A stretch of DNA of 10,000 nt. Origin: Rheinheimera sp. GTDB lineage: Bacteria; Pseudomonadota; Gammaproteobacteria; Enterobacterales; Alteromonadaceae. Every line of letters begins with the position of its first letter. The stretch's first letter is position 1. The stretch is taken from the NCBI RefSeq assembly GCF_020217005.1, contig NZ_JAIWOI010000186.1, forward strand, positions 1 to 10,000, given 5' to 3'. Positions 1,920-10,000 of this stretch are shown here, in pieces. The translations under genes were made by a program, and so were the position numbers. The notes below the pieces were generated by a model. It did no database searches. It saw only the letters and a program-made list of their open reading frames with translations, and was not told where the DNA came from.

Positions 1920-2810
1920 ATGCGTAAGGTAACTGTGGCCGCCACCCAAATGATTGGTGGCTGGAATGTAGAAGAAAATATTGCCCGTGGCGAACGCTTA
2001 GTCCGTGATGCTGCAGCTCAAGGCGCCCAGATCATCCTGCTACAGGAACTGTTTGAGCGTAACTACTTCTGCCAGAAACAAAAGTATGAATATTTAGAGT
2101 TCGCGACTACTGTCGAAGACAACGCGGCTATTAAACATTTCAGCAAAATTGCCAAAGAGCTGAAGGTGGTTCTGCCGATCAGCTTTTATGAAAAAGCCGG
2201 TAACTGCTTCTACAACACTGTGGCTGTGATTGACGCTGACGGCAGCAACTTAGGTTTATACCGCAAGAGCCATATTCCTGATGGCCCGGGTTACAGCGAA
2301 AAGTTCTACTTCACTCCTGGTGATACCGGCTTTAAAGTCTGGGATACAGCTTATGCCAAAATAGGTATAGGTATTTGTTGGGATCAGTGGTTCCCTGAAT
2401 GTGCCCGCAGCATGGCATTAATGGGCGCAGAACTGCTGTTCTACCCAACAGCTATTGGCACTGAACCTCATGATGAAACAGTGAATTCACGTGAACACTG
2501 GCAACGCACGCAGCAGGGTCATGCCGCTGCGAACCTGGTGCCGCTGATCGCTTCCAACCGTATTGGTCGTGAAACCGAAGACGATTACGCTATCACCTTC
2601 TACGGCAGCTCTTTTATTGCCAACGAGTTTGGTGCCAAAGTTGAAGAAGCCGACGAAGTCAGTGAAGCCGTATTAGTTCACACCTTCGATTTAGACGAAA
2701 CCGCGAAAAACCGTCGTAACTGGGGCGTCTATCGTGACCGTCGTATCGACTTATATGGCGCACTGTTAACCAAAGACGGCAAAACCATTCCAACCGAAGG
2801 TAACAACTAA
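1920..2810 (+). CDS. aguB: N-carbamoylputrescine amidase
   Basis: Hydrolyses N-carbamoylputrescine to putrescine, CO2 and ammonia in the cytosol, as the second step of the agmatine route to putrescine. The 296-residue product spans the whole carbon-nitrogen hydrolase (nitrilase) domain and is the usual size for AguB. The nitrilase catalytic triad is visible: Glu43 in LLQELFE, Lys116 in [12 protein letters not shown], and Cys153 in [12 protein letters not shown]. The sequence around Lys116 ([20 protein letters not shown]) and the segment [10 protein letters not shown] (177-186) are typical of the carbamoylputrescine branch rather than of beta-ureidopropionases. The next gene, agmatine deiminase, begins one base after the stop codon, which strongly supports the assignment. 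No frameshift or missing key residue is seen. Confidence 0.95.
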
Positions 2811-2811
2811 G

Positions 2812-3918
2812 ATGGCTGTTACTCTTACTAGCACGCCTCGTGCCGATGGCTTTTTTATGCCAGCCGAATGGGCCACGCATAAACAAACCTGGATGGTATG
2901 GCCAGAGCGCACTGACAACTGGCGCTTAGGTGCCAAACCAGCACAGCAGGCCTTTTGTGCTGTGATTCGTGCCATAGCCCGGTTTGAGCCTGTGACTGTA
3001 TTGGCTTCTGCCGCTCAGTTTGCCAATGCTCAGGCGCAGTTGAGTTTAGAACCAACCACTCACCCAATACGGGTGGTTGAAACTTCAACTGACGACGCCT
3101 GGTGCCGTGACACTGGCCCTACTTTTGTCACCAATGGCAAAGAAGTACGCGCAGTCGACTGGACCTTTAATGCCTGGGGTGGTTTAAACGGCGGTTTGTA
3201 TTTCCCGTGGCAAAGGGATGATCAGGTCGCGCAAAAGATAGCCAATATCGAAGGCACGCCACGTTACCGCACTGAAGGTTTTGTGCTCGAAGGCGGCGCT
3301 ATTCATGTCGATGGCGAAGGCACTTTGCTGACCACTGAAGAGTGTTTGCTGAATAAAAACCGTAACCCGGATTTATCCCGTGAACAAATCGAGCAGATGC
3401 TGTCAGATTACCTGAGTATCGATAAAGTCATTTGGCTGAAAGAAGGCATTTTTAACGACGAAACCGATGGTCACGTCGATAATATGTGCTGTTTTGTTGG
3501 CCCGGCCGAAGTGCTGCTGGCCTGGACAGACGATAAAAATGATCCACAGTACGAACGTTCACGCGCTGCTTTAGAGGTGCTGGAAAACAGTACGGACGCC
3601 AAAGGCCGTAAGTTCACAGTGCACAAGCTGCCTGTGCCCGCGCCTATGCTGGCCAAAGCAGACGAATACGCTACTGTAGATTTAACAGGCGCTGCGGTGC
3701 CCCGTGAATCAGAAGCCCGTTTAGCCGGATCTTACATCAACTTCTATTTATGCAATGGTGGTTTGGTGTTACCGGTATTTGACGATGCCAATGATCAGGT
3801 GGCAATCGATATCTTATCGAAAGTCTTTCCAAAGCATCAGGTCGTGACAGTACCTGGTCGGGAGATTTTATTAGGTGGCGGTAACGTGCACTGTATTACT
3901 CAGCAACAGCCTGCCTAA
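2812..3918 (+). CDS. aguA: Agmatine deiminase (agmatine iminohydrolase)
   Basis: Converts agmatine to N-carbamoylputrescine plus ammonia in the cytosol, supplying the substrate of AguB. The product has 368 residues, the normal length of the PPAD (Porphyromonas-type peptidylarginine deiminase) family. Visible family motifs include [16 protein letters not shown] (16-31), the substrate-site [10 protein letters not shown] (94-103), EGG (160-162), DGHVDN (219-224) with His221, and the C-terminal [11 protein letters not shown] with the nucleophile Cys361. The start at ATG 2812 follows the aguB stop after one base, with GAAGG at 2796-2800 inside the aguB end, so the two are probably translationally coupled. 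The arginine decarboxylase that would supply agmatine and any aguR-type repressor are not in this window. Confidence 0.96.
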
Positions 3919-4079: not shown

Positions 4080-4124
4080 TTAGGATGAAATGGAGGCTAG
4101 TTATAAAAACGCGCATTTTATAAC
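4080..4124 (+). promoter_or_regulatory. Possible promoter and inverted-repeat operator before the kexin-like protease gene
   Basis: The AT-rich stretch 3969-4173 holds a perfect inverted repeat, GTTATAAAA (4100-4108) and TTTTATAAC (4116-4124), around seven bases (ACGCGCA). Its left arm contains TATAAA (4102-4107), a good -10 match. Sixteen bases upstream is only a weak -35 (TTAGGA, 4080-4085). If the -10 is used, a protein bound to the repeat would block the promoter. If transcription starts further upstream, the repeat would form a leader hairpin. Both readings are inference from pattern. Confidence 0.35.
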
Positions 4125-4173: not shown

Positions 4174-6462
4174 ATGTCAAAGCTAAAACAGTCTGCTTTA
4201 TCCGTTGCTGTGCTGGTTGCTCTTGCAGCCTGCGGTGGTGACGGAGCTAAAAATATTGCTCCGCAAGCAACCAATGTATCCTTAACAAATATCGAGGCAA
4301 AAGAATGGGTGCCTGTATCAGGTTCCTTCGCTGCAACAGATGCCAATAAAGACCCCTTAACTCTGACAGCTATCTCAGAAAATGGCGCTACAGTGACAGC
4401 CTCAGGTGGCGTATACAAACTAAGTAAAGGCAACCTGGTCGTTACAGGACTGAACTTTGTATTTATCCCAACAGCCCCTGGTCAGCAGTTGTTTTCTTAC
4501 ACTGTATCTGATGGCAACGAATCAGCAACAGCTACAGTGACACTCGCCAGTGCAGGCACTGATCCTTTGGCTTACCAGCAATGGCATTTAAAAAATACAG
4601 GTCAAAAAGCTTACTCAATGAGTGACTCTTTGTATCAGACTTATATCACTTTGCTCATTGAGCTTGCAGGCATCTCTGAAGCCCAGGCGACAGCTATAGT
4701 TGAGTCACTGAAAAACCCTGAAATACTAGTAGCTGGTGAGGATATGAACGTTCCTGCTGCTTATGCCGCAGGCTCTACTGGTGCCAATACCATAGCTGTT
4801 GTGGTTGATTCAGGTCTGGAAATTAATCACGAAGATTTGCAGGCCAATGTACTGGCCAACCGCTCTATCAACTTTGTAGCAGATGCTTCTGATCCGACTA
4901 ATCCAACCAGCAACTCAGCCTTTGGCGATCACGGCACCAGCGTGGCGGGACTCATTGCTGCGGTGGGCTGGAACGGTCTTGGTGGTCGTGGTGTTGCGCC
5001 TGACGCCAAGTTAATTGGCATGAACTACCTGAAAGAACAAAGTAACCTGGCTTTTACCTTAAGTCATGGTGCTCCAGGCAGTGGTATCACCTCAACTGAA
5101 CCTGTAGCCGTTTTTAACCGCAGTTATGGCATTACTATTCCTGCTGCTATTGCTTACTCTGAATTTGATGAAGCAGTACAACAGTTTAGCGCCACCGAAC
5201 TGCGTTCAGGTTTAGGTGCGGTCAATATGAAATCCAGCGGCAATAGTTTCCGGGATGGTCGTGCCGACTATGATTCAGATTTATGTGAGGTCAACGGCGC
5301 TAATGATTTGGGCCTGACCTGTTACAACGGTAACTTTGAACCTTCACAGGCAACGCCCTACTATTTCAGTGTTGGTGCTGTGAATAGCGATGGTAAACAC
5401 ACCAGCTACTCGACGGCAGGTTCGAACCTGCTGGTGTCGGCTCCTGCTGGCGAATATGGTGATCTGGCTCCGGCTATGGTCACTACAGACCAGATGACCT
5501 GCTTACGCGGTTACAGCAGCTTTGCTTCTGTAGAAGACTACGATAGCGTCTATTTCCCGGGCTTTTTTGCTGGTTTTTTCCCATTTAATAACCCGGGTCA
5601 TCCGGAAAACGCCAGCTGTAACTATACCTCGACCTTTAATGGTACTTCATCGGCAGCACCAAATGCTTCAGGCGTAGTGGCGCTGATAGCTTCAGCCAAT
5701 CCTGCCTTAAGTTACCGTGACATCCGCCATATTCTGGTTTCAACCAGTACTATGGTCGATAAAACGAATGCTCCTGTCGCACTGGAATTAGCAGATGGCG
5801 AATTTCAGGCTCATCAGGGCTGGGTAAAAAATGCCGCTGGTTTTAATTTCAATAACTACTATGGTTTTGGTCGTGTCGATGCAGGTGCTGCAGTGACTAT
5901 GGCGAAAAATTACAAAACCAACTTAGGTGACGCGGTGGTCGCAGATTGGACTGGTGTAGGCACTTATGCCGAAACTCCGGCTTCTTTGGCTTTACCTGTG
6001 CCAGACAACAGTGTCGCTGGTGCAACTGTGTCTATAGAAGTAGATGATGCTCTGGTTCTGGAAGGTGCTCAGTTGAAGTTCTCTATCGCTAACCCGGAAA
6101 TGGCTTATGGTTTTGACACTGTCGATGGCCGCTTCCAGACCACAGCTGGTATCGATTTAGCTATTGAAGTAACCTCTCCGTCCGGTACTAAAAGCGTATT
6201 ATTATCCTCAAAACAAGCCCTGATCTACCCGGCTTTGGCCGAGGACTTTTCTGAAAATCCAGGTTATATACTGCACAACTCAGTATTCTTAACCAACGCT
6301 TTTTATGGCGAAAACGCAAAGGGTACCTGGACTATTAAGGTGTTGGATGCAGGTGCTTCAAACTATGCTTCGACTGGTGGTTTGTTAGGTGTTGACGGTT
6401 ATGTCAACAATACTGCACCTTCTGTTGTCGAAGGTGTAGCTATCCGCGTATTTGGCCGTTAA
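4174..6462 (+). CDS. Lipoprotein kexin-like (S8B) serine protease with P domain
   Basis: A 762-residue cell-surface or periplasmic protease of the subtilisin clan. It begins with a lipoprotein signal peptide whose lipobox is LAAC, lipidated Cys20. Gly follows, with no Asp at +2, which favours the outer membrane. Residues about 27-124 form an Ig/cadherin-like domain. Residues about 129-585 are the S8 domain, opening with the DPL..QWHL motif common in kexin-like enzymes. The catalytic residues are visible: Asp212 (VVDSGLEINHEDL), His253 (DHGTSVAG), oxyanion Asn357 (SSGN) and Ser492 (NGTSSAAP). Residues about 590-745 form a P (homo-B) domain (FYGENAKGTWTIKVLDAG, 738-755 in the long-frame count, or 710-727 here). 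No I9 propeptide precedes the catalytic domain. Start 4174 was chosen because the in-frame ATG at 4090 would bury the signal peptide behind 28 polar residues. The Shine-Dalgarno is weak (AGAGA, 4161-4165). The stop is a double TAA. The 18-base gap to the next gene suggests one operon. Confidence 0.9.
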   Translation: MSKLKQSALSVAVLVALAACGGDGAKNIAPQATNVSLTNIEAKEWVPVSGSFAATDANKDPLTLTAISENGATVTASGGVYKLSKGNLVVTGLNFVFIPTAPGQQLFSYTVSDGNESATATVTLASAGTDPLAYQQWHLKNTGQKAYSMSDSLYQTYITLLIELAGISEAQATAIVESLKNPEILVAGEDMNVPAAYAAGSTGANTIAVVVDSGLEINHEDLQANVLANRSINFVADASDPTNPTSNSAFGDHGTSVAGLIAAVGWNGLGGRGVAPDAKLIGMNYLKEQSNLAFTLSHGAPGSGITSTEPVAVFNRSYGITIPAAIAYSEFDEAVQQFSATELRSGLGAVNMKSSGNSFRDGRADYDSDLCEVNGANDLGLTCYNGNFEPSQATPYYFSVGAVNSDGKHTSYSTAGSNLLVSAPAGEYGDLAPAMVTTDQMTCLRGYSSFASVEDYDSVYFPGFFAGFFPFNNPGHPENASCNYTSTFNGTSSAAPNASGVVALIASANPALSYRDIRHILVSTSTMVDKTNAPVALELADGEFQAHQGWVKNAAGFNFNNYYGFGRVDAGAAVTMAKNYKTNLGDAVVADWTGVGTYAETPASLALPVPDNSVAGATVSIEVDDALVLEGAQLKFSIANPEMAYGFDTVDGRFQTTAGIDLAIEVTSPSGTKSVLLSSKQALIYPALAEDFSENPGYILHNSVFLTNAFYGENAKGTWTIKVLDAGASNYASTGGLLGVDGYVNNTAPSVVEGVAIRVFGR

Positions 6463-6480
6463 TAAAGGAAGTGCAGAGTT

Positions 6481-7023
6481 ATGAAAATTAAATTAGCCAT
6501 AGCCGCCCTGGCCGCTATCGGAACTATGACGTCAGTTCAGGCAACAGAATTAAACCCTGAGTTGAAAAAATTAGCCCCAGTCAAAACTGAAACGAAAAAA
6601 CACCAACTGGACGAAAAAGCAGACTTTGGTGTTTATAAATTACAACCCGATCTTGTATTAGTGCCGTCCAGCCTGGCAGGTAATAACAACCAGGGTTTAG
6701 TGAATGGCCGTGCCATAGTACAACAGGCTAAAGTCAGCACAGACGGCGCAGTTAAAACAGATTCTGTGGTTAAAAACCTGCTGACTGGCGAAATGGGTAT
6801 AGTGACAGGTCGCATTTCTATACTGGCCAAGGATCAGGCGTCGCTGCAACAACTGCAGCAACAGTTTGGCCTGGGTTTGGTGAAAGCCGTCAGCAAACAG
6901 ATAGCCATAGTTCAGGCACCTGCAGGCGCCAATTTATCTGAGCTGATTCAATCTATACGCGCATCAGGCCTGGTCAGAGAAGCCAGACTGGACGTAGTCG
7001 AAACACTAAACCAACCTCATTAA
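6481..7023 (+). CDS. Secreted propeptide-like protein, probable external chaperone/inhibitor of the upstream protease
   Basis: A 180-residue protein with a Sec signal peptide (residues 1-21, cleavage after SVQA), hence exported. Residues 22-105 are polar and match no family I recognise. Residues about 106-175 have the alternating strand-helix-strand-helix-strand layout of S8 propeptides (inhibitor I9 fold): GIVTGRISI, then ASLQQLQQQFGLGLVKAV, KQIAIVQAPAG, LSELIQSIRASGLV and REARLDVVE. The pattern 'AIVQAPAGA...ELIQSIRASGLVREARLD' is what usually sits just before a subtilase catalytic domain, but here it stands alone. It lies 18 bases after a protease gene that lacks a propeptide, with a good ribosome site (AAGGAAG, 6465-6471), so co-expression is likely. 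In Aeromonas sobria the ASP protease has such a downstream partner, ORF2, acting as a chaperone. A pure inhibitor is the alternative. The function is inferred. Confidence 0.72.
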   Translation: MKIKLAIAALAAIGTMTSVQATELNPELKKLAPVKTETKKHQLDEKADFGVYKLQPDLVLVPSSLAGNNNQGLVNGRAIVQQAKVSTDGAVKTDSVVKNLLTGEMGIVTGRISILAKDQASLQQLQQQFGLGLVKAVSKQIAIVQAPAGANLSELIQSIRASGLVREARLDVVETLNQPH

Positions 7024-7040
7024 GCAGTTTAGTTGATACA

Positions 7041-7065
7041 AAGCCCGCCTAAAGCGGGCTTTTTT
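7041..7065 (+). terminator. Intrinsic terminator of the protease-chaperone operon
   Basis: AAGCCCGC (7041-7048) pairs with GCGGGCTT (7054-7061) around a five-base loop (CTAAA), followed by T residues to 7065. It lies 17 bases after the chaperone stop codon. Confidence 0.92.
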
Positions 7066-7142: not shown

Positions 7143-7217
7143 TTAGCTACGACGACGGCGTAACCAAGCCATTGGTAATAACAACAAGGATAACCAGCCT
7201 AAGCTACCGCTTGACCC
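7143..7217 (-). other. GlyGly-CTERM (rhombosortase) sorting tail
   Basis: The last 24-25 residues of the large subtilase have the three-part layout of this sorting signal: a Gly/Ser motif (KGSSGSLG), a short hydrophobic segment (WLSLLLLPMAWL) and a terminal Arg cluster (RRRRS). In known families the rhomboid protease rhombosortase cleaves here, and the proteins are type II secretion cargo that can end up surface-attached. The first motif is Gly-Ser-Ser-Gly rather than the usual Gly-Gly, a mild departure. Confidence 0.8.
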
Positions 7218-10000
7218 CTTAGCATTAGTGACATTCAATGTGACATTAACAGGAGCCGAAGTTGCCTGACCGTCAGAGGCTGTAACTCTGAACACTACTG
7301 CCTGATCTGATTCAACTGCAGGAGCCTTCAGAGTCACTGAGGCTGTGGTTGCATTTATAGCTACTGCAGGGCCTGAGACGTGGCTCCAGCTATAAGTTAA
7401 TGCATCACCATCTATATCTGAACCCGTGACAGATAAAGTTGCACTTTGACCTTCTTCTACTGTAACAGCAGCACCAGCGGCTAAAGTTGGCGCATCATTG
7501 ACCGCTGTCACCGTGACCGCTACTTTAGCTGGCAAAGTTTTAGCTCCAGATTGGTCTTCCGCCTGATAGGTGAAACTGTCAGTGCCGTTGAAGTTTGCTT
7601 TTGGTGTGTAAACAAATTTGCCATCAGCCACAGTTACAGAACCATTAACAGGAGCCACTACCACAGCAGGTTTAGTCAAAGCACCATCAGCTTTTACAGT
7701 CAGCTTATTGAAAGAGTCCAGTGTCTTACCTGCATTGGTCACTTTGGCCTGAACCACTTTCTCAAAGGAGGTCGCATCATTTGCCAGCACATCCACAGCT
7801 GCACTGACCGTATCTTCAGCCACAGTCACAGTATCATCTTCACCTAAAGCCAGCTCGCCCGTATTTTCCACAGCATAGCTCATGGTTAACTTACCACCGG
7901 CCACCACATTCAGATTCAAGGATTGAGCAGACACTGGGGCTGTACCTGTACCATTAAAATACTGGCTGGCACCTAAAGTCCCTGCAGCATCTTCAGCACC
8001 TACTGTGACGTTCGAAGGCATGGCTCCCATATCGAGGTAATTGAAGAAGATATTTTCAGGCGCATTTAAAGCCATCCACACCTGGAAGCTGTATTCGTTA
8101 CCTGACGCATCATCATAAATACGCACTTTATTCCATTCAACTACCAGATAGTCAACGCCACTCAGGGTCAGGACGGCGTAATACATATTACCACCGCCTG
8201 TGCTACCGCCAGCTAAATCCATGTCTGCCCAGAACGGAGCAACCAGATTGTTTGGCGTGATAGTACTGGGCAATTGTTGGTTCGCAAACGAAGGAGCAGG
8301 TGTGGTAGCGGTATTAGAGAAAGTAATAATACCGTTATCCGACAGATAAACCCTGTTGTAGGTCTGGCCATTAAAAGTCACAGGTAAACCTGCGCCCCCT
8401 AAATTCAGACCGGAGTAAAACTCATCACAGTCACCAGTACAGGCAACCCGGGTTCCGCCATTAGTTGCAAGTTCAAAATCTATCGCCGCATCTGTGCTAA
8501 AACGCATAGAAGGTGTATTTAATGTACCTGACCATGACACTACCCCAGAGTCTGAATTTGCATCAAACAAGAACTGATTTCCTCCAGACACTTCCGCATC
8601 ACCACTGGATTCAACCAGTTTGGTACCAGCGGGTAACTTGGAGACAACAGAAATTTGACCGGAGAATGCCTTATTGTTCAGAGTGGTGGATACCAAAGCT
8701 GGTTCTGCTGGCGATAGCTCTCCTACAGCGACAGTAGACAACAACGAACTGTCAGAGGATGTAGCCACACGCACCGCAACAGGCATAGTAGCAGTTGGAA
8801 TGGACGCATCACTTGGAGTCCACAGCACCTGACCGAAGCTCCAGTTGTCCAGTGTCGCAAAGGCACCATTTAACTTCAGACTGAACTCAGCCGAATCACC
8901 TGCTGTTCCGTAAGGTTTTAAGGTCACTGAGCTATGGCTAAACTCCCCCGTCATTGCCGCATCTGTTAAAGACAGAGAAGGTGTCCAGGTCACCTCCTTA
9001 TTAGTCATGTTCCTGATAGTTCTGGTAAAAGTACACTCAGCGACACAAGGATCCTGGGCAAAAGAAGGTTTATCAAAAGTCACACCTGCTTTAGTAGCCC
9101 GCTCTAAATCCAAACGACCCGCGCCTAAATCAAAAGGCGTCGTCGCTGTCACTGAGTCTTCTTTTTTCAGGCCATTCACAGCAGTTGATGTCAAAGCAGT
9201 TTTAATTTCAACCGGAGTCCAGCTTGGATAAAGCTGTTTCATTAACGCAGCAGCACCGGCAACATGTGGTGACGCCATAGAAGTGCCGCTATTTAACTGG
9301 AAAGTACGTGAATCAGCAAAAGCGTCAGGTGAAGTTGCAGATAAAATATTGCTACCCGGAGCGCCAATGTCTGGTTTCAGGAAATTACTATTACCGTTAG
9401 GACCGCGGGAGGAGAAATCACTCATGATGTCTGCGAACTGAGCAGAAAACACTTTATCCGCTTTGATGCCGATAGTGACTGCTGTATTACCTGCAGTTGC
9501 CAACTTAGCACCGTCAGCCTTACTGATCATGACAGCCGGAATAGTCACACCCGGATTCGACATAACACTAGGTTCGCCATCATTATTCTGAATCACTATC
9601 ACAGCCACTGCACCAGCCGCGGCCGCATTGTTTATTTTGTCGCTGAAATTACAGCTACCGCGTGAAATAACTGCAATTTTGTCTTTAAACGTATCAGCAG
9701 GATAAGCCAGACAACCTAAGGCATTATCAGGAGCTACCACCGAAGCCAGCACTACAGGTGCTGATACATCAGAGTCCAGATCTTGTACAGTACTGGCAAA
9801 TGCTGAACCGGCAACCGCAAGGAAATCAGCACCTGCTAAACTGACTTTGTTCGCAAAATAACGACCATGTGTTGTACTGGCCACAGTGATACCTGTTTCA
9901 ATACAAGCTGGACAACCAATAGTTTTGGCTGTTGGGCCATCATTACCCGCTGCTGTTACTATAACTACTCCAGCAGCTTCGGCCGCTGCAAAAGATGCCT
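7143..10000 (-). CDS. Large multidomain S8 subtilase with PA, NIDO-like and GlyGly-CTERM domains, N-terminus off window
   Basis: A secreted serine protease, 951 residues visible, numbered here from the codon at 9998. The frame stays open to the window edge. The GTG at 9884 is an internal Val of the catalytic domain, not a start. The signal peptide, propeptide, catalytic Asp and catalytic His must lie to the right. Seen in order: oxyanion Asn19 (TAAGNDGP); a PA domain insert at about 85-180 (GSCNFSDKINNAAAAGAVAV); SDFSSRGPNG; catalytic Ser240 (NSGTSMASPHVAG); an Fn3-like region at about 308-428; a NIDO-like domain at about 525-700 (DNGIITF, APFWADMD, VVEWNKV, FFNYLDMG); a cadherin-like module at about 718-833 (ANFNGTDSFTY); a PKD/Ig-like module at about 835-924 (GSDIDGDALTYSWS); and the GlyGly-CTERM tail at 928-951. 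PA-domain subtilases of this build are exported degradative enzymes. Type II secretion and rhombosortase processing are inferred from the tail. It converges on the other protease operon. Confidence 0.93.
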   Translation of the reverse strand, partial: ASFAAAEAAGVVIVTAAGNDGPTAKTIGCPACIETGITVASTTHGRYFANKVSLAGADFLAVAGSAFASTVQDLDSDVSAPVVLASVVAPDNALGCLAYPADTFKDKIAVISRGSCNFSDKINNAAAAGAVAVIVIQNNDGEPSVMSNPGVTIPAVMISKADGAKLATAGNTAVTIGIKADKVFSAQFADIMSDFSSRGPNGNSNFLKPDIGAPGSNILSATSPDAFADSRTFQLNSGTSMASPHVAGAAALMKQLYPSWTPVEIKTALTSTAVNGLKKEDSVTATTPFDLGAGRLDLERATKAGVTFDKPSFAQDPCVAECTFTRTIRNMTNKEVTWTPSLSLTDAAMTGEFSHSSVTLKPYGTAGDSAEFSLKLNGAFATLDNWSFGQVLWTPSDASIPTATMPVAVRVATSSDSSLLSTVAVGELSPAEPALVSTTLNNKAFSGQISVVSKLPAGTKLVESSGDAEVSGGNQFLFDANSDSGVVSWSGTLNTPSMRFSTDAAIDFELATNGGTRVACTGDCDEFYSGLNLGGAGLPVTFNGQTYNRVYLSDNGIITFSNTATTPAPSFANQQLPSTITPNNLVAPFWADMDLAGGSTGGGNMYYAVLTLSGVDYLVVEWNKVRIYDDASGNEYSFQVWMALNAPENIFFNYLDMGAMPSNVTVGAEDAAGTLGASQYFNGTGTAPVSAQSLNLNVVAGGKLTMSYAVENTGELALGEDDTVTVAEDTVSAAVDVLANDATSFEKVVQAKVTNAGKTLDSFNKLTVKADGALTKPAVVVAPVNGSVTVADGKFVYTPKANFNGTDSFTYQAEDQSGAKTLPAKVAVTVTAVNDAPTLAAGAAVTVEEGQSATLSVTGSDIDGDALTYSWSHVSGPAVAINATTASVTLKAPAVESDQAVVFRVTASDGQATSAPVNVTLNVTNAKGSSGSLGWLSLLLLPMAWLRRRRS

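Follow-up and report, generated by a model that had tools for sequence, protein, structure and literature searches.

The window analyzed here, i.e., the whole 10,000-nucleotide stretch of Rheinheimera sp. contig NZ_JAIWOI010000186.1, carries on its plus strand a pair of genes that resembles the asp/orf2 operon of Aeromonas sobria. The first gene (4174-6462; frame reading, Pfam and a PDB search) encodes an S8 subtilase lipoprotein of 762 amino acids with a P domain and no I9 propeptide found, and the second (6481-7023; frame reading and Pfam) encodes an ORF2-like partner of 180 amino acids. Both genes are intact and separate, with 18 bases between them; a fused or broken gene was thereby ruled out, and the coordinates, frame and gap given in an earlier note on this DNA were right. 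Comparisons were based on 62 related loci, of which 58 were distinct after removal of L026 (the other half of the gene in L027) and L072-L074 (copies of L016, L018 and L019). These 58 are the best matches to the window, taken first and at most 30 per genome search; 14 further order-level matches lie outside them, at least 11 of these from the genus to which the Aeromonas-type loci belong. Pfam searches covered 57 of the proteases, i.e., all except that of L027.

The signal types of both gene products were assigned by inspection and pattern. At its N-terminus the protease has a lipoprotein signal (4174-4233) containing the lipobox LAAC, in which Cys20 is followed by Gly. An alternative in-frame ATG at 4090 would yield a product of 790 amino acids; the ATG at 4174 was preferred because it matches the script-chosen starts of close relatives, and it is this start that places LAAC at residues 17-20. 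Next comes an immunoglobulin (Ig)-like domain (Big_9) at residues 28-124 (4255-4545; Pfam, 29.3 bits against a cut-off of 23.6), which bears out the lipid anchor and Ig-like domain described in the earlier note. The Peptidase_S8 domain spans residues 209-566 (4798-5871; E 2.3e-33) and the P domain (P_proprotein) residues 654-730 (6133-6363; E 2.3e-9), both above their Pfam cut-offs. By alignment with relatives, the catalytic codons are those of Asp212 (4807-4809), His253 (4930-4932) and Ser492 (5647-5649), as previously proposed; the columns of His253, Ser492 and the oxyanion residue Asn357 are kept in all 58 rows and that of Asp212 in 57, the exception being the start-truncated row L027. Among the 57 proteases scanned with Pfam, the P domain was matched in every one and Big_9 was recognised in 23. 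The claim that an I9 propeptide is missing held throughout, as Pfam found no I9 match in the window protease or in any of the 57.

Although the order of domains agrees with the earlier note, the Ig-like domain does not lead directly into the catalytic domain. Approximately 60 residues (126-186) separate the two, comprising an N-terminal arm, DPLAYQQWHLKNTGQ, and a further insert; the arm and insert, as aligned at residues 130-186 (4561-4731), precede the catalytic core. The insert is found in the window clade, and Pfam gave a weak Peptidase_S8_N match (E 0.0092) for one of the 57 proteases, so that this region could in principle conceal a cryptic internal prodomain, leaving the downstream protein as an accessory. 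We consider this very improbable, given that residues 126-186 of the window protease match no prodomain family in Pfam and that the arm at the start of this segment is also found in the ASP type, with six of its residues (P131, L132, Q136, W137, L139 and N141) invariant across the 57 proteases.

The partner gene is preceded by a putative ribosome-binding-site-like sequence, AAAGGAAG (6464-6471, plus strand, read by eye), and its product bears what appears by eye to be a Sec-type signal peptide without a lipobox. Residues 91-179 match the Pfam family PF18492 (ORF_2_N) with 47 bits, the cut-off being 29.2. Searched as a single sequence against the PDB, the partner gave no significant match; a profile of 40 relatives built without Aeromonas-type rows found ORF2 (2mk4, E 3.3e-6; 3wqb_B, E 4.4e-6), and a profile of all 58 found the ORF2 structures at 3.5e-29, a value that is partly circular because Aeromonas-type rows are inside that profile. 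The best PDB matches of the protease were 3hjr_A (E 5.2e-65) and 3wqb_A (E 1.5e-64), which we take to be ASP of Aeromonas sobria, an assignment that fits PMC5638518. Kinship to ASP/ORF2, as earlier suggested, was thus supported for both proteins.

An AlphaFold2 model of the partner, computed from the alignment of 40, had a mean predicted local distance difference test score (pLDDT) of 77.1 and a predicted template modelling score of 0.66. Averaged over blocks of ten residues, pLDDT was 91-96 between residues 101 and 170 and 71 in block 171-180, which holds the C-terminal tail; residues 1-42 were mostly below 50. I9 domains are expected to show the order strand-helix-strand-strand-helix-strand, and this order was predicted at residues 105-174 (6793-7002), which on the model are I9-like by order of strands and helices, close to the second half (residues 106-180) that the earlier note had guessed. 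In addition, 9 of the 58 partners match the Fervidolysin_NPro-like family of subtilase prodomains (best E 9.8e-5).

Protease and partner form a real two-gene unit. In all 58 distinct loci a partner of 133-185 amino acids lies directly downstream on the same strand, the distance between the two genes ranging from -14 to 95 bases, and all 58 downstream proteins match PF18492 at E up to 0.01. Because every locus keeps this arrangement, chance pairing was ruled out, and homologues of the protease commonly found without the downstream gene, which the earlier note had named as grounds for refutation, did not appear. The near-complete co-occurrence expected there was also observed. Within the genus, 13 of 22 genomes had ORF_2_N, and exactly these 13 also had the protease. 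Within the family, the protease (E up to 1e-40) was present in 26 of 196 genomes, the same 26 having ORF_2_N over the cut-off; three further genomes gave weak ORF_2_N matches only. At the order level (394 genomes), the protease was found in 40 genomes and ORF_2_N over the cut-off in 38, all within the 40; the remaining two (G506 and G640) have weaker partners directly downstream (loci L061 and L060), and another two (G406 and G497) showed weak ORF_2_N without the protease. A class-wide draw returned only the window's own genome (1 of 274) and, being too thin, was not used. Since scoring at the order level took in no more than the two best protease candidates of each genome, paralogue counts there are lower bounds; a third protease that this scoring missed was found at L119 beside its partner. 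Every protease had its own partner in the five genomes seen with more than one (by coordinates in G436, G538 and G640), including the three proteases of G502 and the two pairs of G820, one of which is split over two contigs. The distances of protease and partner were correlated (r 0.84, permutation maximum 0.12), and their nearest neighbours agreed in 37 of the 58 loci.

A second protease gene lies close by. Convergent to the pair, on the minus strand at 7143-9998, is a gene for an S8 protease with PA and Ig-like domains, which runs off the window end and carries a GlyGly-CTERM tail (TIGR03501, 23.6 bits over 15.5). The proximity of another S8 protease raises the question of whether the partner serves that enzyme, or some other protease, instead. 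We give this hardly any weight: in all 58 loci it is the P-domain protease that the partner follows, on the same strand; the window's own genome has a single match to the partner family; and the similarity of the convergent gene at L073 to that of the window is confined to the C-terminal 179 residues (35% identity). The visible part of the L073 gene has no S8 match, but the gene runs off the locus and may still encode a protease. Between the partner and the convergent gene, a terminator-like hairpin (7040-7062, plus strand) would close the two-gene operon; it is statistically weak, because five terminator-like sites were found against 3.8 expected by shuffling. Upstream of the pair, genes resembling those for carbon-nitrogen hydrolase and peptidyl-arginine/agmatine deiminase occupy 1920-3918, and these were also present in L073.

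The partner ends in the tail TLNQPH (7003-7020), and what is conserved in this tail, as judged from the sequences, is its length rather than its sequence. With script-chosen starts, exactly 12 residues follow the anchor position in 52 of 58 partners, and the stretch before Gly110 varies between 63 and 113 residues. A fixed length of this kind would be the pattern expected of a tail measured to reach the active-site cleft, although as a sign of such a role it is indirect.

Taken together, these data make it probable that the two genes form an operon of the ASP/ORF2 kind, with the partner acting in trans as the detached prodomain of a lipid-anchored protease. Domains, gene order, kinship, co-occurrence, the predicted partner fold and the conservation of tail length were computed, and from them we infer co-transcription, binding, foldase action, inhibition, the entry of the tail into the cleft, lipidation itself and the membrane destination. 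The protease would cross the inner membrane via Sec without a prodomain and be lipidated on Cys20, with the Ig-like domain as a spacer between the lipid on one side and the catalytic and P domains on the other. The partner, exported as a soluble periplasmic protein, would supply the detached prodomain in trans: the catalytic domain would fold on the partner's I9-like half as a template, and the partner's free C-terminus, held at a fixed distance from the last strand, would lie product-like in the active-site cleft. The enzyme would thus be inactive for as long as the partner is neither displaced nor digested, and the finished protease would stay tethered, probably to the outer membrane. Natural pairs, alike in tail length but variable in tail sequence, offer a way to test the cleft-plug model.

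The partner might alternatively be a dedicated inhibitor and nothing more, protecting the envelope from a protease that folds unaided. In PMC5638518, ORF2 is described as inhibiting mature ASP with a half-maximal inhibitory concentration (IC50) of 84.3 nM, and a fixed tail length suits an inhibitor as well as it does a foldase. The same source reports that maturation in Aeromonas needs ORF2, the lack of I9 in all 57 proteases leaves them without that built-in prodomain, and the partner is missing from none of the 58 loci, which a mere safeguard would not require. We therefore regard an inhibitor without foldase function as improbable, though less so than either a cryptic prodomain or service to another protease.

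Several observations weigh against the detached-prodomain reading. Besides the single Peptidase_S8_N match, the tail is longer in six of the 58 partners, and only 48 of 58 retain a 12-residue tail when aligned jointly with the relatives linked to M36 metallopeptidases (see below). The C-terminal Lys of ORF2 is missing in the window partner. The column of ASP Arg566, located as residue 590 of L068 (566 plus a 24-residue signal, by our own count), is a gap in the window row and Arg in 7 of 58 rows (3 of the 4 Aeromonas-type rows), in a region that aligns poorly; sequences around Arg566 are said to be well conserved among the proteases compared in PMC5638518. The correlation of protease and partner distances still contains shared species history. 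Moreover, many of the 58 loci are close relatives counted apart, and the co-absence of both genes in the genus may represent one loss of the whole operon.

The lipid-anchored form of the ASP/ORF2 kind is no rarity and is common among the loci read, with 41 of the 58 classed as lipid-anchored and 17 as Sec-only; this is no natural proportion, because the loci are best matches and favour the window's kin. Two labels were set by hand: L027 as a lipoprotein (its start was cut by the start picker, and L026 shows LSGC) and L043 as secreted, given that its AASC is a chance occurrence in a 598-residue protein without an N-terminal extension. In a quick tree, which is unrooted and has some long branches, the label changes once (Shimodaira-Hasegawa-like approximate likelihood-ratio test support, 98), with one more change needed if L043 is taken as a lipoprotein. 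The conserved DPL arm is preceded by 120-397 residues in lipid-anchored proteases (L027 aside) and by 24-52 in Sec-only ones, so that anchor and spacer go together. In E. coli, the presence or absence of Asp at position +2 relative to the lipobox Cys bears on membrane destination. Among 40 rows counted, this position was Gly in 34 and Asn, Val and Ser in two each, and the lack of Asp would by the E. coli rule point to the outer membrane. All of the best 120 of 1591 database relatives have a lipobox-like motif near the start (loose pattern), and simple triad patterns fit 117 of these 120, which include named Rheinheimera, Arsukibacterium, Pseudoalteromonas and Colwellia proteins. A lipobox was also present in L075 from an uncultured Shewanella. 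The ORF2 structures found belong to the secreted ASP pair; if the lipid-anchored form is widespread, the chaperone acting in trans would often have a client that is tethered to a membrane.

Among the lipid-anchored relatives, L059 and L061 are 956-968 amino acids long, and two rows of their group have much longer spacers, with 391-397 residues before the catalytic arm. The open frame of approximately 958 amino acids at L026/L027 (G282) matches the protease in two stretches (query residues 3-540 and 520-761), which suggests from sequence an insert between its S8 and P domains.

Six weak ORF_2_N matches away from ASP-like proteases were retrieved. One, L076, belongs to an unrelated protein of 605 amino acids and was set aside; each of the other five is a lipoprotein whose gene neighbours that of an M36 fungalysin metallopeptidase with a PA domain. 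A profile of the M36-linked proteins aligned with the window partner family at an hhalign probability of 95.6 (E 1.2e-8) and gave matches in 40 of the 196 family genomes at E up to 0.001. The 29 genomes with E up to 4.2e-7, none of whose matches is at an ASP-like locus, were kept for analysis. An M36 domain lies within 2 kb in 26 of the 29 (L077-L110), always on the 5' side and either on the same strand (14 cases) or divergent (12 cases); in the three exceptions, M36 is elsewhere (G339), was not found (G305) or is on another contig, the match being near a contig end (G392). M36 often occurs without an ORF2-like partner, as only 26 of 44 M36 places at E of 1.4e-33 or better have one (four second fragments left out). 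A lipobox pattern was present in 24 of the 28 M36-linked proteins read, and in the other four a Cys narrowly misses it; the count covers all but the 29th (G420), which is spread over two frames. The tails of these 28 spread over 12-19 residues in the joint alignment, with 12 rows at 15. A database search with the M36-linked family returned eight proteins, the names seen being "hypothetical protein" and two of the eight having precomputed PF18492, and a literature search by title found no paper on this link. It is tempting, if rather doubtful, to see ORF2-like proteins as a general class of stand-alone prodomain-like partners for proteases from more than one clan, with the cell often tethering one of the two proteins, i.e., the S8 protease in the window branch and the ORF2-like protein beside M36. 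If true, tethering would confine folding, inhibition and release to the envelope, and through the M36 link the ORF2 family would no longer be limited to serine proteases.

The earlier note knew of no description of a lipoprotein variant. A search by titles and abstract starts, with most subscription papers outside it, likewise found no paper about a lipid-anchored form of the ASP/ORF2 type. The form occurs in Pseudoalteromonas and in an uncultured Shewanella. Operons resembling asp/orf2 are reported from Vibrio, Shewanella, Chromobacterium and Pseudoalteromonas (PMC5638518); as two of these genera are thus already in print, the lipid-anchored form may have been collected before without comment. 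Subtilases of Arsukibacterium and of Rheinheimera sp. A13L, the strain of L073, were surveyed in PMC4767292, the main text of which contains neither "lipoprotein" nor "propeptide".

The closest known system is ASP/ORF2 of Aeromonas sobria (PDB 3hjr, 3wqb and 2mk4), with which the window shares a propeptide-less S8 protease with a P domain and, after it in one operon, a small exported ORF_2_N protein. In contrast to ASP, the window protease adds a lipid anchor and approximately 100 N-terminal residues including the Ig-like domain. Its partner has 109 residues before the conserved Gly, compared with 82-86 in the four Aeromonas-type partners, and ends in His (Gln-Pro-His) where ORF2 ends in Lys (Gln-Pro-Lys; PMC5638518). 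A C-terminal Lys was present in 4 of 58 partners, all of the Aeromonas type, with Q, N, E, R, H, Y, M, L, D or W elsewhere.

As for the S8B kexins, the P domain supports the "kexin-like" label of the earlier note, but the pocket does not. The DDG motif at the catalytic Asp carries the S2 acid of furin and kexin. ASP has this second Asp, and the window protease has Ser213 in its place, aligned with the second Asp of furin. The residue after the catalytic Asp in the window clade is Ser in 25 rows, Gln in three and Thr in one, with one row unreadable and Asp in 0 of 29; Asp occurs in 5 of 11 other lipid-anchored rows and in 4 of 17 Sec-only rows (the four of the Aeromonas type), so that loss of DDG is no mark of the lipid anchor as such. 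ASP prefers cleavage after paired basic residues (PMC2613230); with Ser213, this specificity should not be assumed for the window protease. The I9 propeptides of subtilisins share with the window partner the strand-helix-strand-strand-helix-strand order (predicted here) and a C-terminal tail, but the partner is encoded by a separate gene, so that no autoprocessing would be needed. The neisserial protein NalP is, like the window protease, a subtilase and a Gram-negative lipoprotein, but unlike it an autotransporter (PMC9549277). Overall, the window pair most likely belongs to the ASP/ORF2 kind, in a form with a lipid anchor and an Ig-like spacer.

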